Shown here piece after piece: positions 528 through 18,286 of a stretch of 21,707 bases of DNA (the stretch's first letter is position 1; each line of letters starts with the position of its first letter). Source of the DNA: a virus. The stretch is from the IMG/VR virus record IMGVR_UViG_3300025655_000337, positions 1-21,707 of that record. One strand, 5' to 3'. The position numbers were made by a program, and so were the translations under genes. A model generated the notes under the pieces. That model did not search any database. It worked only from the letters and a program-made list of their open reading frames with translations, and was not told where the DNA came from.

Positions 528-551
528 TTGAACTGAAGGTTTGATTTTCTT

Positions 552-1471: not shown

Positions 1472-1472
1472 A

Positions 1473-1610
1473 ATGGCTAAAGGTGGATCGAAGACTGTAT
1501 TTGAATCAGGGGCACCAAAGAAGACTCGTCAGGGACGGTCTCCTCGTACATTACTTAGTGCAACCTCTCGTAATGGACGGAAGAAAAAGTATCGCGGACA
1601 AGGTAAATAA
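1473..1610 (+). CDS. small very basic protein, 45 aa
   Basis: The protein starts MAKGGSKTVFESGAPKKTRQ and ends RNGRKKKYRGQGK, with about a quarter of its residues Lys or Arg and almost no hydrophobic core. It starts 1 nt after the previous stop with a strong TGGAGG at 9 nt. Its TAA is followed within 6 nt by an intrinsic terminator, so it closes the upstream transcription unit. I recall near-identical short basic proteins in many marine T4-like phages, all of unknown function. Binding to nucleic acid or an acidic protein is plausible from charge only; the acidic 50-aa neighbour is a possible partner, which is speculation. Confidence 0.8.
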   Translation: MAKGGSKTVFESGAPKKTRQGRSPRTLLSATSRNGRKKKYRGQGK

Positions 1611-1615
1611 TTTTT

Positions 1616-1648
1616 AGAGTGCTTAAATAGGTTAAGCACTCTTTTTTT
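1616..1648 (+). terminator. strong intrinsic terminator
   Basis: A perfect 11-bp stem, AGAGTGCTTAA (1616-1626) pairing with TTAAGCACTCT (1632-1642), has a 5-nt loop ATAGG and runs straight into an unbroken T-tract (1642-1648). It stops + strand transcription. On the minus strand the flank reads as A-rich, so it should not work in reverse. Confidence 0.92.
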
Positions 1649-2170: not shown

Positions 2171-2408
2171 AGACCAAAATTTCATGGAAAATGAGTGGGG
2201 AACTCGATATTTGTCATCTGAATATGGTTGGGAAACTCAAATTGAGAGCAAAAAAATGCTTCGTGAGATTGCAAATGATGCATTGACTCCCAAAAAACAC
2301 GATTTCTTCCACCAAAATGAAATTCATGAAAAAATTCGTAATGACGAGGACTATGATGACTGGGAATACGGAACTGAACCACTATATGAATCCAAAAAAC
2401 CCGAATAA
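2151..2408 (+). CDS. acidic hypothetical protein, 85 aa
   Basis: Starts MTKKVDKDQNFMENEWGTRY in a different frame from the preceding gene, overlapping it by 20 nt with a good AGGAG. The protein is polar and acidic, rich in Trp, Tyr, Asp and Glu (EWGTRYLSSEYGWET; NDEDYDDWEYGTEPLYE). It has one likely helix around residues 34-44 (KKMLREIANDA) and no membrane segment. It is the last small gene before the baseplate block. Its TAA lies within the late-promoter match that should serve gp25. I do not recognise a functional family. Confidence 0.75.
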   Translation: MTKKVDKDQNFMENEWGTRYLSSEYGWETQIESKKMLREIANDALTPKKHDFFHQNEIHEKIRNDEDYDDWEYGTEPLYESKKPE

Positions 2409-2411
2409 ATA
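2404..2411 (+). promoter_or_regulatory. candidate T4-type late promoter before gp25
   Basis: AATAAATA fits NATAAATA, the late-promoter core reported for cyanophage S-PM2 and close to T4 TATAAATA. Initiation about 12 nt downstream would give an mRNA starting roughly 10 nt before the gp25 ATG at 2433. The element covers the stop of the 85-aa gene. The same octamer occurs by chance inside gp7 (7338-7345), so position is the main support. Confidence 0.45.
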
Positions 2412-2432
2412 ATACAGTTTTTATACACTTTA

Positions 2433-2834
2433 ATGCCTTTAGAGCGAGTCAGTAAGGGTTTTAAAGACATAAGCATGTCTTTTCAATCAAATCCTCTTAA
2501 TTATGACTTAATTGCACTTAATAATGCAAATGCGATTGCTCGCTCTGTCCGTAATTTGGTATTTACTTATCCAGGTGAAAGGTTTTTTGATGAAAATCTT
2601 GGTTCAAAAATAAGTCAGTCTCTTTTCGAAAATATTGATGAAATTGAAGCGGCGGTAATAAAAGATGAGATTAAAAATACCATTGAAAATTATGAACCAA
2701 GGGTGATTCTTAACAATGTCATAGTCGCTCCAAATTTTAGTAATAATGAATTTAATGTGACTATAGAATATACAATAGTTGGAATTGACGTTCCACCTCA
2801 ACAATTATCATTTGCACTTCAGCCAACACGATAA
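2433..2834 (+). CDS. gp25: gp25-like baseplate wedge subunit
   Basis: Baseplate wedge protein of the GPW/gp25 family; in T4 it sits at the inner baseplate with gp6 and gp53 and helps link the wedge to the sheath and hub. At 133 aa it is almost the same length as T4 gp25 (132 aa). The N-terminal part has GFKDISMSFQSNPL, then a helix NANAIARSVRNLVFT running into the family signature YPGERFFDENLGSKI (residues 48-62). This is followed by a helix with LFENIDEIEAAVIKDEI and the two-strand end VILNNVIVAP and FNVTIEYTIVG. The start has no Shine-Dalgarno but lies just downstream of a late-promoter match. Its TAA is immediately followed by the gp6 ATG. It is structural, so no lysozyme activity is implied despite older naming. 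Confidence 0.93.
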   Translation: MPLERVSKGFKDISMSFQSNPLNYDLIALNNANAIARSVRNLVFTYPGERFFDENLGSKISQSLFENIDEIEAAVIKDEIKNTIENYEPRVILNNVIVAPNFSNNEFNVTIEYTIVGIDVPPQQLSFALQPTR

Positions 2835-4742
2835 ATGGCACTAGTTAATTTCACAAATTTAGACTTTGACCAAATAAAAAGTTCGCTTAGGGAATACTTA
2901 AGAGCGAACTCAAACTTTACTGATTATGATTTTGCTGGGTCAAACCTTTCATACTTAATTGATGTTTTAGCATATAATACATATATTTCCTCATACAATG
3001 CTAATATGGTTAGCAATGAGGTTTTTATTGATAGTGCAACTCTAAGAGAAAATGTAGTTTCTCTTGCAAGAAATATTGGTTATGTTCCACATTCTCGTTC
3101 AGCGGCAAGAGCAAATATATCGTTCTTTGTAGATACTACAGCATTTCCGACAAATCCACTTACATTAACCCTTAAGAGTGGAGTTGTTTGTACTACAAGT
3201 ACAACATTTGCAAATCAAAGTTTTTCTTTTATTATCCCTCAGGATATAACAGTTCCTGTTGTAAATGGAATTGCATTATTTGAAAATGTTGATATTCATG
3301 AAGGTACACTTATAACTAATAACTTTACTGTAGATTCAAATGACCCAAATCAAAAGTTTATCTTAGATAATGCAAATATTGACGTGGATTCTATCAGTGT
3401 TTTTATAAGAGATACTGAACCAAGTACAATAAAAAATCAATATAGACTTGCAACAAATTTATTTGAAGTTGATTCGGAGTCTAGAGTCTTCTTTATACAA
3501 GAAATTGAAGATCAAAGATATGAATTAATATTTGGCGATGGCGTATTTGGTAGAAGTCTAGAAAATTTAAATTATATTGAAGTCTCTTATAATATTACAA
3601 ATGGAGAAACTGGGAACGGAGTTTCTGAATTTAGTTATAGTGGACGTATTATAGATGATTTTAATAGAGTTGTAACAACAGGAGTATCTCTTATTACTAC
3701 AAACTCACCTTCCCAAAATGGGAGAGAGATTGAGTCTGTAGAATCCATTAAGAAATATGCACCTAGAAAATACTCAGCTCAAAATCGTGCCGTAACGGCA
3801 ACGGATTACGAAACTATTATACCAAAAATATACCCAGAAACTGAATCAGTATCTGTATTTGGTGGTGAAGATTTAAATCCACCAAGATATGGAAAGGTCT
3901 TTATAAGTATAAAACCAATTAATGGACCATTTGTATCAAATCAAGTTAAAGATAATATTGAAAGAGATTTGAGAAAATATGCTGTTGCCGGTATAGTTCC
4001 AGAGATTATAGATTTAAAATATCTCTACTTGGAGACAGATACGACTGCATATTACAATTCAAATACAACTTCTGATTCAAATTTCCTTAGAGATAAGATA
4101 TTAAGCAATATAAGAAATTACTCAAATTCAAAAGAACTTAATAGATATGGCGCAAGATTTAAATATAGCAAATATTTAAAAATTATTGACGATTCTGATA
4201 GTGCAATCACATCAAATATTACAAAAGTTGTAATGAGACGTGATTTGCGAGCAACATTAAATACTTTTTCGGACTATGAAATTTGCTTTGGAAATGAATT
4301 TTACATAAAAGATAAGACTGGATACAACATAAAATCTTCCGGATTTAATGTTGCCGGAATAAATGATACATTGTATCTTGGAGATACTCCAAATCCAGAT
4401 GGAACTACAGGAAATATATTATTTTTCAAATTGCAGAATGCTCAACCAGTAATTGTAAAGAAAAATGCTGGGATAATTGATTATTTGAAGGGAGAAATAC
4501 GATTATTCCCAGTTAATATAATTTCCACAGTCAAGCAATCTTTTGAGCAACCAATCATTCAAATTTCTGCGATTCCAAAATCAAATGATGTAATTGGATT
4601 ACAGGATTTGTATTTGCAACTAGATATTAATAGTATTAAATTAAACATGCTTTCTGATGAAATTTCTTCAGGTTCAGATACATCTGGATCTTCATACAGA
4701 TTTACATCAAGTTACACTAATGGAGACCTCGTAAGAATATAA
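2835..4742 (+). CDS. gp6: gp6-like baseplate wedge subunit
   Basis: Baseplate wedge protein; in T4, gp6 dimers form the continuous ring that holds the six wedges together and changes shape on contraction. At 635 aa it is close to T4 gp6 (660 aa). The N-terminal region carries the well conserved YLIDVLAYNTYISSYNANM and SARNIGYVPHSRSA-like block (residues about 40-90). A middle beta-rich domain follows, with YELIFGDGVFGR. The J/gp6 core comes next (about residues 310-360), with KYSAQNRAVTATDYETIIPK and SVSVFGGEDLNPPRYGKVFI. The C-terminal 200 residues are less familiar. ATG 2835 directly abuts the gp25 TAA with no ribosome-binding site, indicating reinitiation or tight coupling. The gp7-position gene starts 4 nt after its stop. 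Confidence 0.95.
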   Translation: MALVNFTNLDFDQIKSSLREYLRANSNFTDYDFAGSNLSYLIDVLAYNTYISSYNANMVSNEVFIDSATLRENVVSLARNIGYVPHSRSAARANISFFVDTTAFPTNPLTLTLKSGVVCTTSTTFANQSFSFIIPQDITVPVVNGIALFENVDIHEGTLITNNFTVDSNDPNQKFILDNANIDVDSISVFIRDTEPSTIKNQYRLATNLFEVDSESRVFFIQEIEDQRYELIFGDGVFGRSLENLNYIEVSYNITNGETGNGVSEFSYSGRIIDDFNRVVTTGVSLITTNSPSQNGREIESVESIKKYAPRKYSAQNRAVTATDYETIIPKIYPETESVSVFGGEDLNPPRYGKVFISIKPINGPFVSNQVKDNIERDLRKYAVAGIVPEIIDLKYLYLETDTTAYYNSNTTSDSNFLRDKILSNIRNYSNSKELNRYGARFKYSKYLKIIDDSDSAITSNITKVVMRRDLRATLNTFSDYEICFGNEFYIKDKTGYNIKSSGFNVAGINDTLYLGDTPNPDGTTGNILFFKLQNAQPVIVKKNAGIIDYLKGEIRLFPVNIISTVKQSFEQPIIQISAIPKSNDVIGLQDLYLQLDINSIKLNMLSDEISSGSDTSGSSYRFTSSYTNGDLVRI

Positions 4743-4746: not shown

Positions 4747-7700
4747 ATGACAGAAACCAGAATCAAAATCAGTTCCGTTCTCAACAATCAACTTCCTCAA
4801 TTTGTTAGAGAAGAATTTCCTTTAGTATCAGAATTTTTATCACAATACTATATTTCTTTAGAAAATCAAGGTGGAACTAGTGATATACTTCAAAATATTG
4901 ACCAATATGTTAAAGTTGACAGTTTAACAAACTTAATTGAATTAACGACTTTAACTTCTGAAGTTACTTTTTTTGATTCTGTAATTAATGTATCTTCTAC
5001 TGCAGGATTTCCAGATTCCTATGGATTGCTATTGATTGATTCCGAAATTATTACATATACCTCAAAAACTTCGACAACTTTTGAAGGATGTGTTCGTGGA
5101 TTTAGTGGGATTACTTCTTATAATGAGTTAAAATTTGAAGAATCTGATTCGCAACAGCATATTTCTGGGTCAATTGTAAATAACTTAAGTATTCTTTTCC
5201 TAAAAGAGTTTCTTGTTAAGGTTAAAAAGCAAATTACTCCTGGATTTGAGACCAGGGAGTTATATTCTGAGTTAAATGAAAGGATTTTTATTAAGCAAGC
5301 GATAGATTTTTATTCATCTAAAGGAACTGATAATTCATTTAAGATATTATTTGGAGCTCTTTACGGGGAAAGAGTAGAAGTAATTCGTCCAAGAGACTAT
5401 CTTATTCAACCATCTGACGCACAATATCGTATTACTTCTGATTTAGTTGTAGAAGCGATTCTTGGCAATCCTGAGGACCTCATTAATACGACATTGTACC
5501 AAGACCCAAATGATTTTCTGGGCAGAGCTCAAGGGACAATAACAAAGGTTGAAAGAATCCGAAGAGGTGATAAAGATTATTATGTTATTAGTTTAGATTC
5601 TGACTATGATAAAGATATTCTACCAATAGGAACAGTATATGGCAAGTTTGCATTACATCCTAAAACAAGAACACTAATAGAATCTGCAATTGGAACCTCG
5701 ACATTGGAGGTAGATTCAACTGTAGGATTTCCTGTTAAAAATGGAACTTTACTAGTTGAACTTGAGAATGGAACGTCCTTAAACATATCTTATACTAGTA
5801 AAACTTTAAATCAATTCTTGGGATGCTCGGGAATTGCTCAAAATATACCGGAAAATTCAGAGATAAAGACTGATTTTTATGCTTATGGGTACGGTAAAGA
5901 TAGTGATGAGGTTAGGATTAGAATTCTTGGAGTTTTGTCTGAATTAGAAATACCAGAAGATACACGTTTTTATTCTAAAGGTGACAATATAAAGATAAAA
6001 ACCCTAGGTGTGGATTTAAGTGATTATAAGTCAAATAATTGGTTTTTTAACGTTCCCGTTTCCTACGATGTAAAAAGTGTTGAATTATTAGATATTTCAG
6101 ATTTATCTTATAGAATAGTTGTATATGATAATCACACTTTAAAGGTAGGAGATTTAGTAACTATAATTTCTTCAAGTGATGATGAAAAAATTGCAAATGT
6201 AACTTCATATGATAATGAGAAATCATTTACAATTCAACTTGGACCAAATCAGTTAGAATTAACCGAAGATTTTTCTTATACAGTTAAGAAAAATCTTGTT
6301 AAAGTTTTATCGGAGAATTATCCATCACTTAATCAATTTACATCTAATGTACAAAATGTTTATGTTGATGGTGCAGATTCTTTATATGTTGCATCTCCAT
6401 CTTTACCAACTTATTTCAATCAACCACTAAAAATAAATGACTCATCAATTACTTTTAGTGGCACTTTTGATGGGGATATTTTAAATATAGGTAAACACGG
6501 GTTATATACTGGAGACTCAATTGTATATAAACCTTCGGTAGGAAATACCCTAGGTATTGGGACTGGTGTTTACTTTATTAAAAAAGTAAGCGAGACAGAA
6601 GTAAAATTATCTAGAAGTAGAAGTGGTATTTTTACAGAAAATTTTGTTTCAGTAAATGGTACAGTTATTAATGCAAAGTTTGAATTGGCGGATTTTGTTT
6701 TTAGAAATCTTTCTACGCAAAATCTTGAATCTCAAAAGTTAATCAGAAAAATCTCAAGCCCAGAAATTGATGGAAATACTTATCAAACTGAACCTGGTCT
6801 TACTGGAATTTTCATAAATGGAGTAGAATTACTCAATTATAAGTCCAAGGACAATGTTTTTTATGGTCCGATTGAAGAAATCATTCCAACTTCAGGTGGA
6901 TTTGACTATGATGTAATTAACCCACCAGTATTGTCTATTGTTGATCCAATTGGTTTTGGAGCAAACGCTTACTGCTCTATTAAAGGAGAATTAAAAAGGA
7001 TTGATATTATAGACCCTGGATTTGATTACTTAGAAGAACCAAAAATAGAAATATTTGGCGGAAATGGGTTTGGTGCTTCGGCAAAGGCAAAATTAGTTAG
7101 TTTTGACCATGAAGTATCTTTTAATTCGCAAATTTCTGCAGGGTTAGTTAAAATAAATCCAATCAACTCTATAGGATTCTCCACTGAACACAAATTCCGC
7201 GATGCAGAAGAAGTAGTTTATGTAACAAATGGGCAATCTGCAGTTGCTGGGTTGGCAACAAATTCCACTTATTTTGTTTCTGTTCAGGATGCATTTACTG
7301 TTAAATTGCACAAATCTTTTTCCGATGCAGTATCAGGAATAAATACCATCCAATTAATTTCCAATGGGACTGGAAATCATTCTTTTAAATCTAAAGATAA
7401 AAAGAAGAAAATAGGTTCCATTACTATTGAAAATAGTGGGTTTAATTATGAAAACAAACTAACTGTAGCAACTTCTTCTGGAATTAACACAGCATCCGAT
7501 ATTATCAATATTAAAAATCATGGATATGAAAGTGGTGAAGTAATTGTATATAACTCAACAGAAACCAATGTCGGTGGTTTATCATCTGGAGCACAATACT
7601 ATGTAACAAAAGTAAGTGATGATGAATTTAGATTATCGAACATTGGAATTGGTTCCTTAGGAATTACTACATCATTTTATTACGATACAAAACAATATAT

Positions 7701-10700
7701 AAATTTAATTTCTGCTGGGTCCGGAAATCACAAATTCAATTATCCAGAAATTAGAGTGTCTGTAAAGGGCAGAATCGGAGTATCTACTTTTAGTGGACAA
7801 GATTTTAATGCAGTTGTTCAACCAATTTTTAGAGGAGAAATTCAGTCAGTATTTGTTGAGTCGGGTGGTTCTAACTATGGATCCGAAGATATTATTAACT
7901 TTAATAGACAGCCACTTTTTGAATTGAATTCTGGTTCCGGAATTCAACTAAAACCAATAATATCCAATGGACAAATAACTGATGTATTAATAAACAGTCC
8001 TGGAAGTGGGTACAATTCTCCTCCAAATCTCGAAGTTATTGGTGATGGTGCTGGTGCATTATTGACGCCCATTTTCTCAAATGGTTCTTTGGTTCAAGTT
8101 AAAGTAATTTATGGGGGTGGTGGATACAATCAGGATAATACTGCTATAATTGCAACTCCTTCTGGTTTTGGTGCTGATTTTGAATCTGCAGTTAAATCGT
8201 GGAAGATTAATCTTGTCGAAAGAGCAATTCAAAATTCTAAAATTGCTAATGATGATGGACTATTAACTACAGGTTTGAATAACGATTATGGACTCCAATA
8301 TAGCCATGCTTATGCACCTAGACCTTTAAGATCTTTGGTTCAGGGAACATCATTCAGAAACGGAAAGGTTGTTTATACTCCAGATTTAGCTATCCAGGAT
8401 AAGAGAGAAATAGAATCAAGTGGACACTCTCCTATTATTGGATGGGCTTATGATGGAAATCCAATTTATGGTCCTTATGGATATTCATCTGCAACTGGAG
8501 GATCTGTAAAATCTCTTACTTCTGGATATGAGCAAAGAATTATTTTAGGTAGACCAAGCACCTCAATTTATCCTCAAGGATTTTTTGTGGAAGATTATGA
8601 TTACGTTGGAAATGGAGATCTTGATGAGCATAATGGAAGATTTGGAATAACACCGGAATTTCCAAATGGAGTTTATGCGTATTTTACTACAATTAATAGT
8701 GGTAATGTTGAGAGAACCGGTTTATTTGAAAATTACAAACTTCCTTCATTCCCATATGCAATAGGAAATTCTTATAAATCTAAACCCATAGATTTTAACT
8801 TTGAAAATACTTCAAATCAAGATTTTATTGATATAAATGATACTGGTTGGAGAAGAAATACAACTCCATATAATCTCATAAGTGATAAAACAACGTATAA
8901 GTATCTTTTAAATCCAAATAAAATAAAACAACAAAATTCAGTTGTAAAAAATATTTTCCCCGGAGATTTGGAATCCATTACAATTGTTGACGGTGGAGAA
9001 GACTATAAAGTTGGAGATAAACTTGTTTTTAAAAATAAAGGTAATTTTATTTCTTCAGGAAAAGCAAAAGTTTCTTCTTTATTTGGAAAAGCAGTAACTC
9101 AAATTAGCGTAGCAACTTCTTCCTTTGATGATGTTGTACTGTATCCCAATGAAAGTGGAAGTTTTGTTGGATTTACTACTATCCCACATTATTATGTGGA
9201 TAATGATTTGATTACTTTTACCGGACAATTTGATTATAAAAAATCTAGTACAATTAATGTAAATTATAATAATCTATTTTTAACTTCCGGAATTGGTTCC
9301 GCAATTTATACCGGATTGGTTACTTATTTTAATGTCTCTGGAAATTTAAGTTATCCAAACATCAGAGAAAATGACATATATCAAATTGGAAATGAAGAAA
9401 TAAAAGTTTTGAGTATAGATCCAATATCATCAAGAATCAAAGTACTTCGCAATCAAAATGGTACAGTTGGTCTAGTAACATACGGTGCTGGGATAGGACT
9501 TACGGAAAAAACTAAGAGATTTTCTATCAACTTTGGAATTTCTACATCATACAATTACAGAATAGACCGTGAATTTTATTTTGAGCCTAAAGAAACTGTG
9601 GGATTGGGAACACTTTCTGGTGTGGGTATTGTAAGTACCATTTATTTCTCTAATCCCGGTGTTGGAATCACTCAAATTTCAATTCCGACTCAATCATTAT
9701 ACCTACCAAATCACAATTTGATTACTGGAGATTCTTTAATTTATTCTGCAAATGGTGGAACAAGAGTTTCTGTTTCTACTGATGGGAATTCTAGTTTTCA
9801 ACTTGATGATAATTTAACGGTTTATGTTGCAAAAATTTCTAATGATTTAATTGGAATTTCAACAATTAAAGTTGGTATTGGTTCTACTGGAACTTTTGTT
9901 GGAATGGGTTCCACTGCATCTGGAATTCTTTACTTTACTTCAGTAGGAACGGGCAATACGCACAGTTTTAGGACAAATTATAAAAATTCTTTAGTTGGCT
10001 CTATCAGTAAAAATGTAGTCACTGTATCCACAGGAGAAACTCATGGACTATCTTTATTAGATAAAGTAACTATTGATGTAAAGACTGGAATTGCTACAAC
10101 ATTTATTGTAAAATATGATGACTACAGTAGGAGAATGCTTATAAATCCAAGACAATTCTCTTCTGTTGATATTGAAAATAATAGAATAAGTATCAATAAT
10201 CATAAGTATTATACTGGACAAAAGATTTTACATACATCAAATAGTCCTGCAACTGGATTGGTTGATCATGAATCATATTATGTAATAGTCGTGGATTCAG
10301 ATACAATTATGTTGTCCTCGACATATTATGGGGCAACTAAATTAAATCCAGAAATTATAGACATCACAACATCATCAACTGGAACCATTTCCGCAATAAA
10401 TCCTCCAATTACAGTAGAGAGAAATCATCCTATTATTTTTGATTTGTCGGATTCATCACTAAGTTTCTTCTCTAACGTTGGGGTGGCGACTTATTCTGCT
10501 TTCGATCTTAAAATTTATAAAGATTCTAAATTTAGTGAGGAATTTAACTCAACATCAACCCTGAGCATTTTTGAAGTTTCTAGAAGTGGCAGAGTTGGAA
10601 TTGATTCTACCGCAAAACTAACGATTTTGGTTGGAGATGAAATTCCAAATAATCTTTATTACAAATTAGTCCCTATTAATCTAAATCTAAGTCCTCAGGT

Positions 10701-13700
10701 CAAAAAAGAAATTATAAAAGATTCTGATGTAATTTCTGGCAGTCAAATATCATTAGTCAAAAATAGATTAAATGACACATATTCTATTGTTGGAATTGGA
10801 TCAACTACTTTTAAATTTAATATATTAGATAAACCAGACTATGATTCTTTATCATCAGTCTCTAGCGAAATATATTACTATACCGATTCTACAAAAGTAA
10901 AGGGTGCAATAAAAGAAATTTCTTTGACCAGCAGAGGAAGGGGATACACATCTTTGCCATCAATTAGTTCAGTTATTTCTGAAAGTGGTTCTGGTGCTAT
11001 ACTCATTCCAGAAACAAAATCAATCGGTAGAGTTAGTTCTACAGAAATTCAAGATATTGGATTTGAATATCCTACAGACTATAGTTTAAGACCTTTGGCC
11101 AAATACCCAACAATTCTAGTCCTTGAACCATTGTTCAAATTTGATAGTGTGGGAATTTCTTCTTTTGGTAAAGATTATAGTACTGCACCTTCTCTTGTAG
11201 TTGTTAATGGTAATAGTGGGGGTGTTATAGAAGATGTTGAATTAACATATACTATCGGAAGTAAAAATGTAAGTATTAATAAAAATAGTTCAGAATTAAC
11301 TAGTACTCCTAGAATAATTCCAATTAACAACTCGAATGGTATTAGAGTAAAAAATATAGTATTTAATAACTCTACTAAGAATGTTGTAGTAACTCTTGGG
11401 TCAAGTTTTAGCGATCCCGAAGAATATCCATTTGCAGTAGGAAGTAAAATATTGATTGAGGGGGTGAGTGTTGGAGTTGCTTCCACTGGAAAAGGATATA
11501 ATTCCAGCAACTATGCATATTCGTTATTTACACTTACAGCAATTGATCCTAATATTGGTGGAGCTGATGGAACTTTAACATTTAATCTTTCTTCATATCT
11601 CAAAGATGGCGAAACCCCAGGTACTTTTAGTTCTATAAATTCTGCAGGAAGAGTTGTTCCTGAGTCATATTTCCCAATATTTGATATTAAATTAAAGAAA
11701 AATATTTTCTATGAAGGAGAAACAGTTTATACTTCCAATGCAAGTGCTATTGTAGAAAATTGGGATGAAGATAATGAATATCTGAAGGTCTCTACGATAA
11801 ATGACTTTTCCATCAATCAAAAAATAGAAGGAAGAACTTCTGGGTCTGTTGGAATAATTAAAAAAGTTATTGATTTGGATTCAAACTATAAAATAGATTC
11901 ATCATCTCCATCCAGAAAAGGTTGGAATCGTGAGACTGGATTTTTAAATAATACATTCCAAAGAGTACAGGATAGTGATTATTATCAGTATTTTTCTTAT
12001 GATTTGAAGTCAACCGTAGATCTTAATACATGGATTAATCCAGTAAATACATTAAATCATACTGCAGGATTTAAAAAATTTGGTAATTTAATATCAGAAT
12101 CCATACCATCTAATTCTGGAATATCTACAGATCAAAATCAGGGAGATTTTATAGGAATTTCAGACTTGTCTGCATTTGTTGATTTAAACTGTGTTAATGA
12201 TTTTGATTTGGCAAGCGAAAACACTTTGAATATTGATGGGTCTATTTTATCAAATGAAATAATTTTTAACTCTGCAATTATCCAGGATTATATTGAATCT
12301 ATAGGAAACAGAGTATTAACAATTGATGATATTTCAAGCGAATTTAATAGCAACCCAAGAGCTACTCAATTTAGTATAGTAGATAATTTTGTTTTGAATG
12401 ATTATAGAAGTAAAAAATATATAATTTTTGCAAGAGATAAGAGATTTGTAAACGAAACTCAACTAAGTTTAGTTACATTTTTACATGATAATTCTACTGG
12501 ATTTTTGAATCAGTATGGAGTAAGGAGTTTTAATGATTTAGGATTTTTTGATTTTTCTGTATTTGGTACTGAAGGTAGTTTACTATTTTATCCAACTAAA
12601 GCGAAGAGAAATGATTATCATCTTGGATTATTCTCTTTCTCATTGAGCGATTTAAATGTTGGAATAGGTTCCACAAACTTAGTTAATTTGGGAGATAGTG
12701 TTAGTGTTGGAGTATCTACAACTAATATAGCATCTGGCAGTTTGGGTTCTATTGAAATTGTTGGAATTTCTTCTACATATAGGTCTGGAAAGGTTTTGGT
12801 TCAAATAGGGGCAACGGATTCATCTTATTATCAGTATGATGAAATTTCATATATTTACGATGGCTCTGAGGTTCGCTTCCAGGATTATGGTCAACTTTCT
12901 ACAGATACATTTGAATCAACATCAACCATAGGAATAGGAACTTACGATGCATACCTATCTGGTTCAAATATTAGAATTGATTTAATAATAGATGAACCAA
13001 CTTCGGTGGAGTATATTATTAATACTTTTGTGGTGTCACTGGGAAATACAACAACATCCGGAATAGGAACTCAAATTCTATCGGGAAGTTCTATTAATTC
13101 ATCTTCAGTATCTATAGCTAGTAGCAGTTCACCAACATCGGTTGTAATTGGTTCATATCTAAATGATTCTCACAATTCATCATATTCGGTCATAAGTATT
13201 GAAGATATAAGCAATTCCCAGTATCAATTGTCAGAATTTTTAACTGTTACTAATAATTTAAATTCTTATGATACTGAGTTTGGAGTCTTACAGACTGAAA
13301 ATCAACTTGGAATTATAACTTCTGGTATTTCTGGTTCATATACAAACATATATTTTACACCAAATGAAAACATTGAGGTTGATGTAAAATTATTTAAAGT
13401 TGATGTTGGACTAAATGAAGTAAATGAACAAATAGATTTAACTGATGCAGCTATTAACTATGATTATGGAATATACACAGGCACTGACAATGATGTCAGA
13501 AAGCATTTTAATTTAAATTACAGAACATTACCAATTTTCCAAAGATATTTTGATGCTAGTGATGAAAGTGTTATAAATGTTGACACAAACGTTATTAGAA
13601 TTCCATATCACACCTATGTGACTGGAGAGGAAATTGCATATTCTTATCCAGGTGTGGGTACTACACAGGCAATTGGAATTGCAACAACATCTATTTCGGG

Positions 13701-16700
13701 TATTGGTTTGACTGATAAACTACCCTCAACATTATATGTTGTAAAAATTAACGATATTGACATTCAAGTCTCCGCTTCATCTTCTGAAGCTCTGAAAACT
13801 ACACCAGATGTCTTGGATATAACTTCTGTTGGAATAGGCAGTTCTCATATATTTACTGCCAAAAATCAAAATAACAAAGCAATTATAACTTTAGATAATG
13901 CGATTCAATCTCCAGTAGTATCTACTTCTACAACTACTACAGCAATACAAGATATTTCTTTCTTCGATTTTGAAATTTATTTATCGAGTGCAGATTTAAT
14001 TTCTGGTGGAGATTTGCTTAAGATTGATGATGAAATAATGAAAGTATATTCTGTTGGAGTTGGTAGTACTAATGTTATTTCTGTCATAAGACCTTGGTTG
14101 GGAACAGTTCCAGCATCTCATACTTCATCAAGTTTAGTTACTAAGGTTTTGGGAGATTATAATATCGTTGGCAGTACAATCCATTTCACTGAGGCTCCTT
14201 TTGGAAAAATTCCATTTATAAATCCATCCAATAGACCCGATGAAGTAGACTACATTGGTATTTCTACGGGTTCTTCTTTCAGTGGAAGAGTATTTTTAAG
14301 ATCTGGAATTCCAGACACATTGGAAGAATCATATACTCGCAACTATATTTTTGATGATATATCCGATCAATTCAATGCATATGCTGATTCCTTTATATTA
14401 AAAAATAATGGAAATGATGTATCCGGAATATCCACCAATAATGCAATTGTCCTGATTAATGGTGTTTTCCAACCATCAGTTTCTGTTGGTGTTACTGGTG
14501 TTTATGATTTGACAGAAAATGCGGGAATAACTAGTATAACTTTTATTGGTGAAGGATTACCCTCCGAGTATGATGTCAATACTACAAGTTTACCAAGAGG
14601 AGGAGTTATACTTTCTATTGCATCAACTTCGGGATTTGGATACCAACCACTAGTATCCGCTGGTGGAACTGCAGTAGTTTCTTCTGCTGGAACAATTCAG
14701 TCAATCAGTATTGGAAATAGTGGTTCTGGTTACAGGGATGGAATTCAAAACATAGTTAATGTTGGAGTCAAAACTGAAAATCTTGTGAATTCTAGTATTG
14801 AATTCATAGGAACTGCATCAGTTCTAAATGGAAGTGTGGTTAGTATTGCTATTACTAATCCTGGAATTGGTTATACAACATCAAATCCACCTATCGTTGT
14901 GTTTGATTCTCCACTATCCTATTCTAATATTCCTTTAGTTTATAGTTCAGAATCTTCTGCAGGATTTGGAACAGGAGCAACGATTGATATAGTTGTTGGT
15001 CAGGGTTCAAGTGTAACATCTTTTGAGTTGAAAAATCTTGGATATGCATATAAAAAAGGAGAAATATTAACAGTTTCTATTGGAGGAACTACTGGAATTC
15101 AAACAACTTCATTACCGGGTTTCTCTGAATTCCAAGTTACTATTGATACTGTTCAGAGTGATCAATTTGCTGCTTGGACGGTTGGTTCTCTCCAAGTAAT
15201 CGATCCACTAGATTCTTTATTTGATGGGGAAAGAACAGTATTCCCAATACTGATTGAGGGCAATCAAACCACAATTAGATCTAAAATGGGATCAATTATA
15301 GACCAAAGGGCACTTGAAGCTAGCTTGCTTATCTTTATAAATGATGTACTTCAAGTTCCTGGAGAAGGTTATGCATTTAAGGGTGGAAGTACAATCAGAT
15401 TTACAGAAGCTCCCAAAGTAGGTGATACTTCCAAAATAGTCTTCTACAGAGGAACTGTGGATATTGATACATTATTTGTAGATATTTTAGAAACTATTAA
15501 GATTGGAGATAAAGTAACTCTTAATAGTGATGATTCTAAATTGGTACAAAATGATAGATTAGTTAATGATATTATTTCTTCAGACACTTTAGAAACTAAT
15601 CTCTATCCTGGTCCTGCGGTTACTCAGAATGAAAATCTATTAAGACCTCTAATTTGGTGTAGACAGACGGAAGACTTATTCGTTGATGGTCAATTTGTTG
15701 GAAAAGATAGGGTGATTTATGAACCATACATTCAACCAAATTCAAACATAATTCAAAATTTTGGAATTGGTTCTACTGAAATTTTTGTAGAAAGTGTTAA
15801 AACATTTTTTGATAGTGATAGAGAGTATGAAAAAGATGGAACAACAGAAAAACCACAAAATAAAATATTAATCATCTCACAAGATACATTGGTGTCAGCT
15901 TCTGCTACAGCAGTTGTATCAACATCTGGGACTATTACTTCAGTGTTGATTAGTGATGGTGGTGTTGGTTATAGTACATCTCCAACAATTTCAATCGGAG
16001 ATCCTATTGGAATTGGAATTACTGGAAGAGCACAAGCATCATCTATTATAGTTGATGGTATAGTAACCTCTATAGAAATTACATCTCCAGGATTTGGATA
16101 TACTACATCAAATCCACCAGAAATCTTAATTGAGCACCCATCTGCAAAATATGAAGTAATTAATAATATTTCATATACTGGAGATTTTGGAATAATTTCT
16201 GGCATCAAAACAACCTCTGTTGGAGTAGCATCTACTGGTATTGTATTTGACTTCTATATCCCAGAAAATTCTCCAATAAGAGATGGTGAAACAGTATCGG
16301 TTGGCATTGCAACAACTGGTATTAGTGGAATTGAAACTGGGTACTATTTTGCTATTAATAAGTCAAATGTTGGTAATGGGCTTACCTCACTAAATTCTTC
16401 TGGTGGAACAGTTGGAGTTGGAACAACATTTATTGACAACATTTATCAGGTTGCATCCGTTTCAATTGCACAAACTGCAGTTGCTGGTGTTGGAATTACA
16501 TATGTTGCCCAAGTTACAGTAAGCGTTTCTGACTTTAATGGATTAAGTGGACTTGGATTTAGTGGTTTTTATGGTGAGTATAGTTGGGGAAGAATTTCAA
16601 CTCCAATACGCAAAGACGAAGAAGATTTTGAAAGTTATGCAAACATTGGAGGAATGTCTACTTCACCAATAGTTCAAAGATTTAATCGTCTAAAATTCAG

Positions 16701-16716
16701 ACAATATAGTACATAA
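4747..16716 (+). CDS. gp7: giant modular baseplate wedge protein at the gp7 position, 3989 aa
   Basis: Large virion structural protein between gp6 and gp8, where T4 has the wedge-initiating gp7 (1032 aa). The identity as gp7 is from synteny and the N-terminal region (MTETRIKISSVLNNQLPQFV), which I recall at the start of cyanophage proteins in this slot. Beyond that it is mostly beta-rich modules in one uninterrupted frame. There are GxGY modules (residues 709-784, 1032-1152, 2055-2159, 3304-3389, 3717-3798) and H-xxx-TG modules starting at His 584, 815, 925, 1656, 1819 and 2955. A YHYH-like domain spans about 1190-1325 and a DSDYYQYFSY/HTAGFKKFG segment about 2389-2450. FINxV and IDxEI modules are scattered through it. 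The C terminus (YGEYSWGRISTP, PIVQRFNRLKFRQYST) looks conserved. No transmembrane segment was seen. There is no Shine-Dalgarno; ATG is 4 nt after the gp6 stop. Parts could act as fibre-like decorations, which is inference. Confidence 0.92.
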   Translation: MTETRIKISSVLNNQLPQFVREEFPLVSEFLSQYYISLENQGGTSDILQNIDQYVKVDSLTNLIELTTLTSEVTFFDSVINVSSTAGFPDSYGLLLIDSEIITYTSKTSTTFEGCVRGFSGITSYNELKFEESDSQQHISGSIVNNLSILFLKEFLVKVKKQITPGFETRELYSELNERIFIKQAIDFYSSKGTDNSFKILFGALYGERVEVIRPRDYLIQPSDAQYRITSDLVVEAILGNPEDLINTTLYQDPNDFLGRAQGTITKVERIRRGDKDYYVISLDSDYDKDILPIGTVYGKFALHPKTRTLIESAIGTSTLEVDSTVGFPVKNGTLLVELENGTSLNISYTSKTLNQFLGCSGIAQNIPENSEIKTDFYAYGYGKDSDEVRIRILGVLSELEIPEDTRFYSKGDNIKIKTLGVDLSDYKSNNWFFNVPVSYDVKSVELLDISDLSYRIVVYDNHTLKVGDLVTIISSSDDEKIANVTSYDNEKSFTIQLGPNQLELTEDFSYTVKKNLVKVLSENYPSLNQFTSNVQNVYVDGADSLYVASPSLPTYFNQPLKINDSSITFSGTFDGDILNIGKHGLYTGDSIVYKPSVGNTLGIGTGVYFIKKVSETEVKLSRSRSGIFTENFVSVNGTVINAKFELADFVFRNLSTQNLESQKLIRKISSPEIDGNTYQTEPGLTGIFINGVELLNYKSKDNVFYGPIEEIIPTSGGFDYDVINPPVLSIVDPIGFGANAYCSIKGELKRIDIIDPGFDYLEEPKIEIFGGNGFGASAKAKLVSFDHEVSFNSQISAGLVKINPINSIGFSTEHKFRDAEEVVYVTNGQSAVAGLATNSTYFVSVQDAFTVKLHKSFSDAVSGINTIQLISNGTGNHSFKSKDKKKKIGSITIENSGFNYENKLTVATSSGINTASDIINIKNHGYESGEVIVYNSTETNVGGLSSGAQYYVTKVSDDEFRLSNIGIGSLGITTSFYYDTKQYINLISAGSGNHKFNYPEIRVSVKGRIGVSTFSGQDFNAVVQPIFRGEIQSVFVESGGSNYGSEDIINFNRQPLFELNSGSGIQLKPIISNGQITDVLINSPGSGYNSPPNLEVIGDGAGALLTPIFSNGSLVQVKVIYGGGGYNQDNTAIIATPSGFGADFESAVKSWKINLVERAIQNSKIANDDGLLTTGLNNDYGLQYSHAYAPRPLRSLVQGTSFRNGKVVYTPDLAIQDKREIESSGHSPIIGWAYDGNPIYGPYGYSSATGGSVKSLTSGYEQRIILGRPSTSIYPQGFFVEDYDYVGNGDLDEHNGRFGITPEFPNGVYAYFTTINSGNVERTGLFENYKLPSFPYAIGNSYKSKPIDFNFENTSNQDFIDINDTGWRRNTTPYNLISDKTTYKYLLNPNKIKQQNSVVKNIFPGDLESITIVDGGEDYKVGDKLVFKNKGNFISSGKAKVSSLFGKAVTQISVATSSFDDVVLYPNESGSFVGFTTIPHYYVDNDLITFTGQFDYKKSSTINVNYNNLFLTSGIGSAIYTGLVTYFNVSGNLSYPNIRENDIYQIGNEEIKVLSIDPISSRIKVLRNQNGTVGLVTYGAGIGLTEKTKRFSINFGISTSYNYRIDREFYFEPKETVGLGTLSGVGIVSTIYFSNPGVGITQISIPTQSLYLPNHNLITGDSLIYSANGGTRVSVSTDGNSSFQLDDNLTVYVAKISNDLIGISTIKVGIGSTGTFVGMGSTASGILYFTSVGTGNTHSFRTNYKNSLVGSISKNVVTVSTGETHGLSLLDKVTIDVKTGIATTFIVKYDDYSRRMLINPRQFSSVDIENNRISINNHKYYTGQKILHTSNSPATGLVDHESYYVIVVDSDTIMLSSTYYGATKLNPEIIDITTSSTGTISAINPPITVERNHPIIFDLSDSSLSFFSNVGVATYSAFDLKIYKDSKFSEEFNSTSTLSIFEVSRSGRVGIDSTAKLTILVGDEIPNNLYYKLVPINLNLSPQVKKEIIKDSDVISGSQISLVKNRLNDTYSIVGIGSTTFKFNILDKPDYDSLSSVSSEIYYYTDSTKVKGAIKEISLTSRGRGYTSLPSISSVISESGSGAILIPETKSIGRVSSTEIQDIGFEYPTDYSLRPLAKYPTILVLEPLFKFDSVGISSFGKDYSTAPSLVVVNGNSGGVIEDVELTYTIGSKNVSINKNSSELTSTPRIIPINNSNGIRVKNIVFNNSTKNVVVTLGSSFSDPEEYPFAVGSKILIEGVSVGVASTGKGYNSSNYAYSLFTLTAIDPNIGGADGTLTFNLSSYLKDGETPGTFSSINSAGRVVPESYFPIFDIKLKKNIFYEGETVYTSNASAIVENWDEDNEYLKVSTINDFSINQKIEGRTSGSVGIIKKVIDLDSNYKIDSSSPSRKGWNRETGFLNNTFQRVQDSDYYQYFSYDLKSTVDLNTWINPVNTLNHTAGFKKFGNLISESIPSNSGISTDQNQGDFIGISDLSAFVDLNCVNDFDLASENTLNIDGSILSNEIIFNSAIIQDYIESIGNRVLTIDDISSEFNSNPRATQFSIVDNFVLNDYRSKKYIIFARDKRFVNETQLSLVTFLHDNSTGFLNQYGVRSFNDLGFFDFSVFGTEGSLLFYPTKAKRNDYHLGLFSFSLSDLNVGIGSTNLVNLGDSVSVGVSTTNIASGSLGSIEIVGISSTYRSGKVLVQIGATDSSYYQYDEISYIYDGSEVRFQDYGQLSTDTFESTSTIGIGTYDAYLSGSNIRIDLIIDEPTSVEYIINTFVVSLGNTTTSGIGTQILSGSSINSSSVSIASSSSPTSVVIGSYLNDSHNSSYSVISIEDISNSQYQLSEFLTVTNNLNSYDTEFGVLQTENQLGIITSGISGSYTNIYFTPNENIEVDVKLFKVDVGLNEVNEQIDLTDAAINYDYGIYTGTDNDVRKHFNLNYRTLPIFQRYFDASDESVINVDTNVIRIPYHTYVTGEEIAYSYPGVGTTQAIGIATTSISGIGLTDKLPSTLYVVKINDIDIQVSASSSEALKTTPDVLDITSVGIGSSHIFTAKNQNNKAIITLDNAIQSPVVSTSTTTTAIQDISFFDFEIYLSSADLISGGDLLKIDDEIMKVYSVGVGSTNVISVIRPWLGTVPASHTSSSLVTKVLGDYNIVGSTIHFTEAPFGKIPFINPSNRPDEVDYIGISTGSSFSGRVFLRSGIPDTLEESYTRNYIFDDISDQFNAYADSFILKNNGNDVSGISTNNAIVLINGVFQPSVSVGVTGVYDLTENAGITSITFIGEGLPSEYDVNTTSLPRGGVILSIASTSGFGYQPLVSAGGTAVVSSAGTIQSISIGNSGSGYRDGIQNIVNVGVKTENLVNSSIEFIGTASVLNGSVVSIAITNPGIGYTTSNPPIVVFDSPLSYSNIPLVYSSESSAGFGTGATIDIVVGQGSSVTSFELKNLGYAYKKGEILTVSIGGTTGIQTTSLPGFSEFQVTIDTVQSDQFAAWTVGSLQVIDPLDSLFDGERTVFPILIEGNQTTIRSKMGSIIDQRALEASLLIFINDVLQVPGEGYAFKGGSTIRFTEAPKVGDTSKIVFYRGTVDIDTLFVDILETIKIGDKVTLNSDDSKLVQNDRLVNDIISSDTLETNLYPGPAVTQNENLLRPLIWCRQTEDLFVDGQFVGKDRVIYEPYIQPNSNIIQNFGIGSTEIFVESVKTFFDSDREYEKDGTTEKPQNKILIISQDTLVSASATAVVSTSGTITSVLISDGGVGYSTSPTISIGDPIGIGITGRAQASSIIVDGIVTSIEITSPGFGYTTSNPPEILIEHPSAKYEVINNISYTGDFGIISGIKTTSVGVASTGIVFDFYIPENSPIRDGETVSVGIATTGISGIETGYYFAINKSNVGNGLTSLNSSGGTVGVGTTFIDNIYQVASVSIAQTAVAGVGITYVAQVTVSVSDFNGLSGLGFSGFYGEYSWGRISTPIRKDEEDFESYANIGGMSTSPIVQRFNRLKFRQYST
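4999..5118 (+). repeat. IDxEI/RG module, copy 1 (within gp7)
   Basis: Encodes LLLIDSEIITYTS followed by FEGCVRGFSG. The same plan (hydrophobic strand, acidic D/E-EI turn, Y-S, then R-G or P-W-L-G) recurs near 5743-5850 (LLVELENGTSLNISYTSK, FLGCSG), near 9380-9470 (NEEIKVLSI, VLRNQNGTVG) and at 14005-14148. The copies are diverged, so this is a protein-level repeat rather than a DNA repeat. Confidence 0.55.
6484..6660 (+). repeat. H-xxx-TG module, copy 1 (within gp7)
   Basis: HGLYTGDSIVYK opens the module at His584, then VYFIKKVSETEVKLSRS. It matches the scheme His-x3-(T/S)G-(D/E)-x-(I/V)-x-Y, a linker, Y-(Y/F)-V-x-K-V-S, a strand, and short serine-rich sequence. The closing GNHSF element seen in other copies is missing or unrecognisable here. 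Confidence 0.55.
6871..7098 (+). repeat. GxGY-type tandem module, array 1 (within gp7)
   Basis: Two units: IIPTSGGFDYDVINPPVLSI then FGANAYCSIKGELKRIDII, and DPGFDYLEEPKIEIFGGNGF then GASAKAKLV. Each unit is a G-(G/S)-x-x-Y turn, a Pro-centred strand (PPxVxI), a G-x-GA element and a return strand. The repeats are diverged at the DNA level. Confidence 0.65.
7171..7395 (+). repeat. H-xxx-TG module, copy 2 (within gp7)
   Basis: HKFRDAEEVVYVTNG opens at His815, then STYFVSVQDAFTVKLHKS, and SNGTGNHSFKS closes it around His878. It is one of three copies with a clear GxGNHxF ending (copies 2, 3 and 4), so it defines the full module length of about 70 residues. Confidence 0.65.
7501..7745 (+). repeat. 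H-xxx-TG module, copy 3 (within gp7)
   Basis: HGYESGEVIVYNSTE opens at His925, then AQYYVTKVSDDEFRLSN, and SAGSGNHKFNY closes at His995. It lies less than 50 codons after copy 2, so copies 2 and 3 are near-tandem. Confidence 0.65.
7840..8202 (+). repeat. GxGY-type tandem module, array 2 (within gp7)
   Basis: Three consecutive units over residues 1032-1152: SVFVESGGSNYGSED, then VLINSPGSGYNSPPNLEVIG with DGAGALLTPIF, then VKVIYGGGGYNQDNTAII with SGFGADFESAV. It lies directly before the YHYH-like domain and is the longest run of these units in the protein. Confidence 0.7.
8280..8715 (+). other. YHYH-like domain inside the gp7-position protein
   Basis: Residues about 1190-1325 include GHSPIIGWAYDGNPIYGPYG (His1227 at nt 8425) and DLDEHNGRFGITPEFPNGVY followed by AYFTT. 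These match the hallmark blocks of YHYH-domain proteins (PF14240): S-P-x-x-G-W-A-x-D-G-x-P-I-Y-G, and D-x-x-N/H-G-R-x-x-x-T-P-E-x-P-x-G. YHYH domains are known from secreted and surface bacterial proteins; the function is unknown. Here the domain is flanked by GxGY modules. Confidence 0.8.
9700..9975 (+). repeat. H-xxx-TG module, copy 4 (within gp7)
   Basis: HNLITGDSLIYSANGG opens at His1656, then LTVYVAKISNDLIGIST, with an inserted KVGIGSTGTFVGMGSTAS stretch, and SVGTGNTHSFRTN closes at His1739. A partial extra copy follows at His1766 (THGLSLLDKVTIDV, nt 10042). Confidence 0.65.
10189..10395 (+). repeat. H-xxx-TG module, copy 5 (within gp7)
   Basis: HKYYTGQKILHTSNSPATG opens at His1819, then ESYYVIVVDSDTIMLSS, then IIDITTSSTGTISAI where the closing GNHSF is degenerate. 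Confidence 0.6.
10909..11223 (+). repeat. GxGY-type tandem module, array 3 (within gp7)
   Basis: Residues 2055-2159: ISLTSRGRGYTSLPSISSV with SGSGAILIPE, then STEIQDIGFEYPTDYSLRP and VGISSFGKDYSTAPSLVVVN with GNSGG. Three diverged GxxY turns, each followed by a Pro-containing strand. Confidence 0.6.
11911..12096 (+). other. DSDYYQYFSY ... HTAGFKKFG segment inside gp7
   Basis: Residues about 2389-2450 carry GWNRETGFLNN, RVQDSDYYQYFSYDLKS and a following NHTAGFKKFGN. I recall this combination (D-x-x-Y-Y-Q-x-F-S-Y ... H-x-A-G-F-x-x-F-G) as a recurring block in large tail and baseplate proteins of T4-like marine phages. It is preceded by GRTSGSVGIIKKV, similar in plan to EGRDSGATAIITR in the downstream DUF4815-type protein. 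The role is unknown. Confidence 0.5.
13597..13860 (+). repeat. H-xxx-TG module, copy 6 (within gp7)
   Basis: HTYVTGEEIAYSYPGVG opens at His2955, then TLYVVKINDIDIQVSAS, and ITSVGIGSSHIFTAK closes at His3034. It is separated by more than 1100 residues from copy 5. Confidence 0.65.
14005..14148 (+). repeat. IDxEI/RG module, copy 4 (within gp7)
   Basis: GGDLLKIDDEIMKVYSVGVG followed by VISVIRPWLGTVPASH and SLVTKV. It has the same plan as the copy near 4999, here with a fuller ending (PWLGTxxxxH) typical of this module in phage structural proteins. Confidence 0.55.
14656..14913 (+). repeat. duplicated GxGY double module, copy A (within gp7)
   Basis: Residues 3304-3389. Starts GGTAVVSSAGTIQSISIGNS, has GSGY, then VLNGSVVSIAITNPGIGYTT and SNPPIVVFDSP. 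It pairs block by block with the copy at 15895-16140 (TAVVS-x-x-GTI, S-x-x-I, GY, V-x-SI-x-IT-x-PG-x-GYTTSNPP), pointing to an internal duplication. Confidence 0.75.
15328..15465 (+). other. FINxVxQxPGxGY module (within gp7)
   Basis: Encodes LLIFINDVLQVPGEGYAFKG, then STIRFTEAPKVGDTSKIVF and YRGT. This block is common in large marine myovirus tail proteins. A related but diverged block lies at about 14449-14520 (IVLINGVFQPSVSVG) and a shorter one near 6805 (GIFINGVELLNYKS). Confidence 0.6.
15895..16140 (+). repeat. duplicated GxGY double module, copy B (within gp7)
   Basis: Residues 3717-3798. Starts ASATAVVSTSGTITSVLISD, has GGVGYSTSPTISIGDP, then GIVTSIEITSPGFGYTT and SNPPEILIEHP. It is the partner of the copy at 14656-14913. 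GYTTSNPP is identical in both, and the DNA shares an uninterrupted ACATCAAATCCACC within the surrounding near-match. Confidence 0.75.
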
Positions 16717-16735: not shown

Positions 16736-18286
16736 ATGTCTGCAATAATAACTGACCAATTAAGAATTTTGAATGCTAAGAATTTTGTTTCTGCAGCAAC
16801 TTCTTCTGCCAATTCTTATTATTCTTTTGTTGGTTTACCTAATGCAACAGATTATGATATAAACTGGGATTTTAATCCACCATCTCCTAGAGATAGTTTT
16901 GAGCAAGAGAATGATTATTGGGATACTATGATTGCTTTAAAGAAAATTAAAGCAAGTGACGTGAATCAAGTTATTAGAAAAATTACTTGGTCATCTGGGA
17001 CGACATATGACATGTATCGTCATGATATTAGTAGAACAAATACATCCAATCCTTCAGGCGCAACAAGTTTATATTCTTCAAATTATTACGTAATTAATAG
17101 TGATTTTAGAGTTTATATTTGCTTACAAAATGGAACTGACCCAGAAAATCCCGGAGGAAGACCTTCATTAGATGAGCCAACCTTTACAGATTTGGAACCA
17201 AAGGCTGCGGGGGATAGTGGTGACGGTTATATTTGGAAATATTTGTATACAATTAAGCCAAGTGAGATTATAAAGTTTGATACTATTAACTTTATGCCAG
17301 TCCCAAAAAATTGGGAAACATCAAGTGAATTCGCAGCGATTCGTAATAATGCAGCATTTCCAAACAATCAACTTAAAATTATTACAATAACTAACAGAGG
17401 TGTTGGTTTAGGCACAGCAAATAGAACTTATACCAACGTTCCCATTAAAGGAGATGGTACAGGTGCTAGAGCAACTATAGTCATTAATAACGATTCTAAG
17501 GTAGAATCAATAAATGTTTCAATTGGTGGTTCTGGTTATACTTATGGAACTGTTGATTTGGAAGGGGGAAATGTTCCAACTGGAGAAGTAACTCCAACTT
17601 TTGATGTAATTATTCCACCAAAGGGAGGACATGGGGCAGATATTTACAGAGAACTTGGTGCCTATAATGTTCTTGTTTTTTCAAGGATAGAAAACGACAC
17701 AGAAAATCCAGATTTTATTACCGGAAATAAAATTGCAAGAGTTGGTCTTGTAGAAAATCCACAAGCACATGATTCGACATCATTACTAGATTTGGATAAA
17801 GCTAGCGCAGTCTATGCCCTCAAGTTAACTGGTCTTGGTTTTGATACTGCAACTTTTGCCGCAAATTCTTTTATAACCCAAACTATAAGCACTGGAAGCA
17901 CTGCCGTTGGTAGAGTTGTATCTTATGACCAAAATACTGGCGTTTTAAAATATTGGCAAGATAAATCTTTTGTTGGATTTAATACGGATGGTTCTCAAAA
18001 TTCAAACCCAGAATATGGACTTAATTTAAACAGATTTACTGCTCAAGTTGGAACTGGAGGAACTACCTTTATTGGTGATACTGGTCTTTCTATTGATACA
18101 GAATTTACGGGTATAACTACCACACTAAATAATAGAACATATAATCTTGGACAACCTTTTATCGGCGGCGTATCAAATCCAGAAGTTAAAAAATACTCTG
18201 GCAATATCATTTATGTCGATAATAGACCTTCGATTACTAGATCTCAAAACCAAAAAGAAGATATCAAAGTTATTTTGCAATTCTAA
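16736..18286 (+). CDS. gp8: gp8-like baseplate wedge subunit, 516 aa
   Basis: Baseplate wedge protein; in T4, a gp8 dimer binds gp7 and gp10 in each wedge. The N-terminal part has a helix (TDQLRILNAKNFVSAA), FNPPSPRDSF and YWDTMIALKKIKASDV. Then come TYDMYRHDISRTN and VYICLQN, and the conserved GDGYIWKYLYTI block at residues 162-173. This block and the C-terminal NIIYVDNRPSITR followed by QKEDIKVILQF match T4 gp8 (GDGYVWEYLFEI; IYMENRPPI). At 516 aa it is much longer than T4 gp8 (334 aa). The extra length lies between those two anchors and includes a GxGY module pair at residues 213-278 like those of the giant neighbour. The start has no clear Shine-Dalgarno; ATG is 19 nt after the previous stop. 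The next gene begins 6 nt after its stop. Confidence 0.93.
   Translation: MSAIITDQLRILNAKNFVSAATSSANSYYSFVGLPNATDYDINWDFNPPSPRDSFEQENDYWDTMIALKKIKASDVNQVIRKITWSSGTTYDMYRHDISRTNTSNPSGATSLYSSNYYVINSDFRVYICLQNGTDPENPGGRPSLDEPTFTDLEPKAAGDSGDGYIWKYLYTIKPSEIIKFDTINFMPVPKNWETSSEFAAIRNNAAFPNNQLKIITITNRGVGLGTANRTYTNVPIKGDGTGARATIVINNDSKVESINVSIGGSGYTYGTVDLEGGNVPTGEVTPTFDVIIPPKGGHGADIYRELGAYNVLVFSRIENDTENPDFITGNKIARVGLVENPQAHDSTSLLDLDKASAVYALKLTGLGFDTATFAANSFITQTISTGSTAVGRVVSYDQNTGVLKYWQDKSFVGFNTDGSQNSNPEYGLNLNRFTAQVGTGGTTFIGDTGLSIDTEFTGITTTLNNRTYNLGQPFIGGVSNPEVKKYSGNIIYVDNRPSITRSQNQKEDIKVILQF
17372..17569 (+). repeat. GxGY module pair inserted in gp8
   Basis: Residues 213-278: IITITNRGVGLGTANRTYTN followed by GDGTGARATIVIN, then VESINVSIGGSGYTYGTVDL and EGG. 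It has the same plan as the GxGY arrays of the adjacent giant protein, at a place where T4 gp8 has no counterpart that I can align. Confidence 0.65.

Follow-up and report, generated by a model that had tools for sequence, protein, structure and literature searches.

In phage T4, the baseplate wedge protein gp7 (1032 aa; PDB 5hx2, 5iv5) occurs sixfold and makes contacts with gp10, gp8, gp9 and gp6, with its domain A swinging out at baseplate opening (PMC3004832). A minimal gp6 wedge partner is found in Vibrio phage XM1, where the 242-aa gp7 counterpart gp17 forms the core bundle together with two gp6-type proteins and the tail spikes, which dock as separate proteins, attach at a loop of the core domain (80–106) and at the C-terminus (201–242) (PMC10457771). 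The gp7 of phiMAM1 (Ackermannviridae, 276 aa; PF23786) equally consists of the core only. In pelagi- and cyanomyophages, T4 gp7 has been stated to be absent, with VrlC as its substitute (PMC7029224).

Genomic context and size of the slot protein

The window, an IMG/VR virus fragment analysed over its entire 21,707 bases, is T4-like cyanophage DNA. Four bases apart from the end of gp6 it harbours a single ATG-initiated open reading frame of 3989 codons with no internal stop, surrounded by the following genes:

2433–2834, plus strand: gp25-like baseplate wedge/sheath initiator protein (PF04965, E 1.1e-15; PHROG_261, E 6e-52)
2835–4742, plus strand: gp6-like baseplate wedge protein, the wedge partner of gp7 (PF21379, E 9e-16; PHROG_219, E 3e-199)
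4747–16716, plus strand: giant protein of 3989 aa in the gp7 slot (PHROG_2885)
16736–18286, plus strand: gp8-like baseplate wedge protein (PF09215, E 9e-17; PHROG_438, E 3e-162)
18293–21706, plus strand: structural gene cut at the window end (PHROG_358, E 6e-296; synteny with S-SM2 and HTVC008M), in the position of the 'VrlC'/structural protein genes of these two phages

The gene order gp25-gp6-gp7-gp8 of a T4-type gp7 is thereby present in the window. The preliminary description of this DNA had reported an unbroken frame of almost 12 kb in the gp7 slot between gp6 and gp8, and both the frame, through the open reading frame check and the neighbour families, and the slot, through the flanking gp25, gp6 and gp8 in Pfam and PHROGs, are borne out. 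Comparison to seven segments from other IMG/VR contigs yielded a dN/dS of 0.10–0.23 for ~1000 codons at either end of the giant frame, with codon changes mostly at third positions, so that both ends are translated and selected; the frame is under purifying selection.

Upstream of gp25, two small overlapping open reading frames are located at 1649–2170, assigned to PHROG_10325 (unknown), and 2151–2408, assigned to no family. Further upstream, the gene at 552–1319 (255 aa; PHROG_1574, function unknown) has weak glycosyltransferase relatives and accounts for most of the window's best nucleotide matches to known cyanophages (76–81%), unlike the structural genes, which show little nucleotide similarity to them.

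With respect to its family, the window protein aligns over residues 1–3350 with positions 5–3362 of the PHROG_2885 'baseplate wedge subunit' profile (3481 bits), and relatives carry the GenBank label 'gp7: baseplate wedge initiator'. The PHROG_2885 Synechococcus phages Bellamy, S-SM2 and SynMITS9220M01 and the Prochlorococcus phage P-SSM2 encode in the same slot proteins of 4067, 4156, 4067 and 5195 aa, which are 35–48% identical over the first 600 aa (tblastn) and differ from the window protein in length and module content, while IMG/VR contigs reach up to 85–99% identity, with complete frames of 3685–4035 aa. The slot proteins of S-CAM9, S-SSM7 and S-PM2 comprise 3884, 3007 and 3048 aa, that of S-RIM12 6376 aa (L139, 11737–30867) and that of P-RSM6 8573 aa, encoded by a 25,722-bp coding sequence (103907–129628 of HQ634193; L145) of which the first 7209 codons were checked and are open. 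Outside the cyanophages, the lengths are 1032 aa in T4, 1016 in Pelagibacter phage HTVC008M, 1007 in Sinorhizobium phage phiM12, 503 in Stenotrophomonas phage IME-SM1, 335 in Vibrio phage D508 and 276 in phiMAM1. The slot protein thus varies about 30-fold among sequenced relatives, from 276 aa (phiMAM1) to 8,573 aa (P-RSM6). A length of 3989 aa is ordinary for the slot protein in cyanophages of the PHROG_2885 group, and the window protein is a further member of a giant gp7 family that has been annotated for years.

The annotation of this homologous slot family is scattered over PHROGs 2885, 4406, 701, 19630, 3465, 460 and 26741, labelled 'baseplate wedge subunit', 'head and packaging', 'head closure Hc2' or 'unknown'. 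For example, HTVC008M gp055 is labelled head closure Hc2, yet is located between gp6 and gp8 and possesses the gp7 core. In S-SSM7 (L137, 15986–33676), two genes are annotated as gp7; the gp7 core is located in the first (3007 aa), and the second (~3000 aa) matches window residues 3111–3750 only and looks, from its sequence, like a separately encoded C-terminal part.

A gp7 core at the N-terminus

The homology to gp7 resides in the N-terminal region, which is composed as follows:

4747–4926, plus strand: residues 1–60, N-terminal helices (alignment, model helices) with the pattern QLPxFxxxxFPLxxEFLxQYY, common to the slot proteins outside T4; a candidate helix-turn-helix of the core bundle
4927–5181, plus strand: residues ~61–145, beta insert of repeat type R1 within the core domain (95.7% self-match to 302–366)
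5182–5616, plus strand: residues ~146–290, rear portion of the gp7 core, containing the motif DFYSSKGTDNSFKILFGALYGERVEV (187–212) and homologous to T4 gp7 725–813

When the profile of the family N-terminus was compared with the T4 gp7 profile by hhalign (95.4%, P 1.8e-8), window residues 179–283 aligned with T4 725–813 around DFYSSKGTDNSFKILFGALYGERVEV versus DFYSTKGIEASYKFLFKVLYNEEVEI, and residues 1–60 correspond by position to the helical domain PF21428 of T4 gp7 (643–689). As a control, the core profile (residues 1–300) was compared with all coding-strand open reading frames of at least 100 aa from four phage regions as well as with gp7 alignments that had been shuffled (20) or reversed (one), in all 112 comparisons. 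The best five of the 112 were exactly the slot proteins, with scores of 61–97 (HTVC008M 97.7%, phiM12 97.2%, IME-SM1 97.4%, and T4 as profile, 96.2%, and as single sequence, 93.4%); the best non-slot score, shuffled gp7 included, was 22.8. With a broader core profile, a search of the entire PDB sequence set retrieved two T4-type gp7 proteins on top (5hx2, E 1.6e-6; 9f4a, E 1.9e-6), followed by a match at E 0.17.

A second route leads via PF23786, 'Phage baseplate wedge subunit', which 23 out of 25 core sequences match (E<=1; best 3.6e-9). Its 27-bit gathering threshold is passed by phiM12, IME-SM1, HTVC008M and S-RIM12, and the window core scores below it (24.1 bits, E 2.9e-5). The place of the core within T4 gp7 is fixed by PHROG_964 (T4 gp7), where phiM12 10–208 aligns with T4 643–832 (E 8.9e-7), a region in which Pfam locates the helical domain (643–689) and domain V (766–861) of T4 gp7. 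It follows that the proteins of phiM12, IME-SM1, HTVC008M and the cyanophages begin at the start of the T4 core; the first three share this core with the window protein at 97% (hhalign).

The curated domains PF21428, PF21427 and PF21456, all of which match T4 gp7 itself, were detected neither in the window protein nor in the core relatives including phiM12, IME-SM1 and HTVC008M, and thus mark the branch close to T4 rather than gp7 at large. As the profile–profile and PDB profile searches do match, their absence is read as divergence. A direct sequence search of the PDB with the full window protein found nothing, and slices of residues 291–3989 did not exceed 60% probability against the T4 gp7 profile, nor did slices past residue 290 against T4 gp6, gp8, gp9, gp10, gp11, gp12, wac, gp5 and VrlC. 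By these sequence comparisons, gp7 identity holds for the first ~290 residues only, equivalent to approximately T4 643–830. Of the gp7 relationship to be sought, according to the preliminary description, in the N- and C-terminal parts, the N-terminal portion is thus retained, as the N-terminus matches gp7, and is not extended to residues 291–3989. The refuting case named there, in which neither end would be related to gp7, does not apply.

While T4 gp7 has ~640 aa before and ~200 aa after this core, the window protein has none before and ~3700 aa after it, and no counterpart of T4 domain VI (920–1012) was detected. T4 and cyanophages have enlarged opposite sides of one shared gp7 core. To call the protein four times T4 gp7, as was done initially, is therefore the wrong yardstick, since the 640 N-terminal residues of T4 are missing here and the mass is added on the other side. 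The core motif is displaced to residue 696/707 in S-RIM12 and P-RSM6, which indicates an enlargement of the core-domain insert to ~570 aa in these phages.

AlphaFold2 models of residues 1–1010 and 2899–3989 (pLDDT 72 and 68.6) contain helices at 8–62 and 147–206 and almost only strands elsewhere, with a low pLDDT of ~50–60 across much of 1–220. In a Foldseek search against the PDB, neither model, the core being of low confidence in the first, had a match at E<=0.001, and the relation of the core to the gp7 fold is deduced from sequence. For the fibre-like skirt conjectured in the preliminary description, the two models thus supplied no significant PDB counterpart.

Modules and gene splits behind the core

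Downstream of the core, the protein is built from the following parts:

5617–11694, plus strand: residues 291–2316, variable string of beta modules with copies of R1–R3
8410–8703, plus strand: residues 1222–1319, YHYH domain (PF14240, E 1.5e-24, 87.5 bits versus a cut-off of 25), a match that covers this domain and not the whole protein
11695–12171, plus strand: residues 2317–2475, conserved stretch equivalent to the C-terminal parts of shorter gp7s (hhalign 94.7–96.5%)
12397–13467, plus strand: residues 2551–2907, three ~125-aa repeats of type R4 (self-match up to 98.9%)
13438–13443, plus strand: residues 2898/2899, place of the gene split in three clades of relatives, unsplit in the window
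13441–16713, plus strand: residues 2899–3989, C-terminal module, a free protein of ~1080 aa in B23 and several contigs

Slices of the family profile compared with the same profile match elsewhere in it at 90–99% probability and define at least five repeat types (R1–R5). Copies of R1 are located at 60–125 and 302–366, with a weaker one near 3041–3134; the ~80-aa repeat R2 occurs at 558–636, 783–880, 911–998, 1644–1740, 1807–1880 and 2941–3040, R3 at 705–790, 1029–1097, 1075–1151, 2042–2114, 3299–3390, 3360–3440 and 3713–3799, and R5 at 3199–3246 and 3482–3540. Together with the AlphaFold2 slices, which are overwhelmingly beta outside 1–210, these self-matches substantiate the initial impression that the excess consists mostly of recurring beta modules. 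Modules are gained and lost, as one clade lacks exactly the blocks 902–987 and 1785–2005 and P-SSM2 carries an additional ~1000 aa around 3325–3360.

The conserved stretch 2317–2475 matches 797–986 of the 1007 residues of phiM12, 379–465 of the 503 of IME-SM1 and 687–815 of the 1016 of HTVC008M, thus their C-terminal parts, which makes residues 2476–3989 a further add-on. In comparison with the window protein, these three phages have little or no elastic region and are without the C-terminal add-on.

A BFVD search with the C-terminal module retrieved for the most part baseplate wedge initiators of cyanophages along with further large structural proteins, and Foldseek with the C-terminal slice aligned ~99 columns with the tailspikes 9k4a and 4y9v (AP22 tailspike) at probability 1.00 and E 0.06–0.12, which weakly suggests a stem domain of tailspike type. 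The 'LLIFINDVLQVPGEGYAFKGGSTIRFTEAP' domain at 15130–15483 (aa 3462–3579) has a weak phmmer match to 9k4a, the Klebsiella K64-1 depolymerase S2-4 (E 0.027). TRAPPC13, HSP70 and short-chain dehydrogenases, considered as relatives, were weak matches at chance level and were rejected.

In several relatives the gene is naturally split. B23 (L102, 14004–25783) has two open reading frames of 2845 and 1081 aa with a four-base overlap (ATGA), the first open reading frame ends TAATAATG in contigs L056 and L039, and contigs L052 and L054 possess an in-frame stop followed by an ATG about a dozen codons on. All three junction types are located at window residue ~2898 and, in a quick tree of the first ~900 residues with B23 on a long branch, belong to three separate clades among unsplit relatives. 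Sequencing error is unlikely, as the start and stop codons are correctly placed in all three cases and two of the junction types occur in more than one contig. One further split, near residue 2452 in contig L030 (17298), possibly is a frameshift error.

Role of the extension

According to the reading preferred here, which is considered likely, the window protein represents a T4-like cyanophage gp7 composed of a small conserved wedge core and a very long modular extension. Residues ~1–290 would form with the gp6 dimer the 'core bundle' of the wedge beneath gp25, comparable to the minimal partners of phiMAM1 and XM1, and residues 291–3989 would project from the wedge as a chain of recurring beta modules, in which 2317–2475 marks the terminal region of a gp7 of ordinary length and 2476–3989 is a fused add-on, part of which can also be made separately. 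The extension would replace the docked peripheral proteins and the fibre and spike attachments of T4, such that gp7, presumably in six copies per virion, may itself covalently carry the contact with the host surface and link this contact to the opening of the baseplate. The extension of cyanophage gp7 would consequently be a covalent, peripheral and probably host-contacting apparatus, although the modules could be spacers or structural packing instead. Among the sources searched, none contained a solved baseplate structure for a cyanomyovirus.

Two published observations on related cyanophages lend support to this reading. For the product of ORF122 of S-CREM2 (77594–83407, 1937 aa), directly after a gp6-type wedge gene and by its coordinates between the gp6- and gp8-type genes, 91 unique peptides have been detected in virions (PMC10665884). 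S-PM2d081, a hypothetical protein of 3048 aa that gained mutations during S-PM2–Synechococcus coexistence (PMC9910659), is by number and length the slot gene of S-PM2; these mutations are weak evidence of function.

Whether the extension contacts the host or is mainly architectural, with modules that brace or enlarge the wedge ring in a two-layered or wide baseplate while other fibre proteins touch the host, depends on how the modules are judged. Except for YHYH, they are without obvious enzymatic or receptor-binding families, and cyanophages have further genes for large fibre-like proteins downstream. However, close relatives lose and gain whole modules yet keep the protein, and the 30-fold variation in slot length is more in keeping with an exposed than with a load-bearing region, which renders a mainly architectural extension rather unlikely, if still a serious contender. 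Improbable to a higher degree is a mature wedge with two polypeptides joined at ~2898, due to a post-translational cut or to two proteins in some relatives: three clades do have the gene split there, each with a junction of its own, but the single frame is kept in most relatives, the window included.

By far the least probable proposal is that cyanophages lost gp7 and VrlC replaced it, the giant frame being an unrelated structural newcomer in the slot. It has been published for pelagi- and cyanomyophages (PMC7029224), and is in line with the assignment of gp7 to the non-cyanophage core (Sullivan et al., 2010) and with the lack of a direct match of the window protein to curated T4 gp7 domains. 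Against it stand the core homology obtained by several routes with clean controls, the conserved gene order, and phiM12 and IME-SM1 as clear intermediates that match T4 gp7 as well as the cyanophage core. The core homology contradicts the claimed absence, as both phage groups keep gp7 between gp6 and gp8; the VrlC-like gene comes after gp8 (S-SM2, HTVC008M; window from 18293 onward, PHROG_358).

Within the preferred reading of a gp7 core with a modular extension, the two places where the XM1 spikes attach are the two places enlarged in the cyanophage gp7s. Tentatively, and with less confidence than the reading itself, the gp7 slot can be viewed as an elastic chassis with a fixed core of ~200–290 aa and growth points at the core loop and the C-terminus, where simple phages dock their spikes, so that cyanophages might make the host-contact apparatus part of gp7 itself as beta modules are added, deleted and split, over a range of about 300 to 8,600 aa and with recurrent fission at ~2898. 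This elastic core and the recurrent fission point are the points of interest that are left.

With respect to the family, a map is gained of where gp7 is located within the giants, which sides of the core have been enlarged and where the gene naturally breaks, and the boundaries 1–290, 291–2316, 2317–2475 and 2899–3989 can be used for constructs in structural work. The unnamed S-PM2 gene of 3048 aa, mutating under host pressure, is now tied to the baseplate wedge. The published statement that these abundant ocean phages are without gp7 is corrected by the homology of the core.
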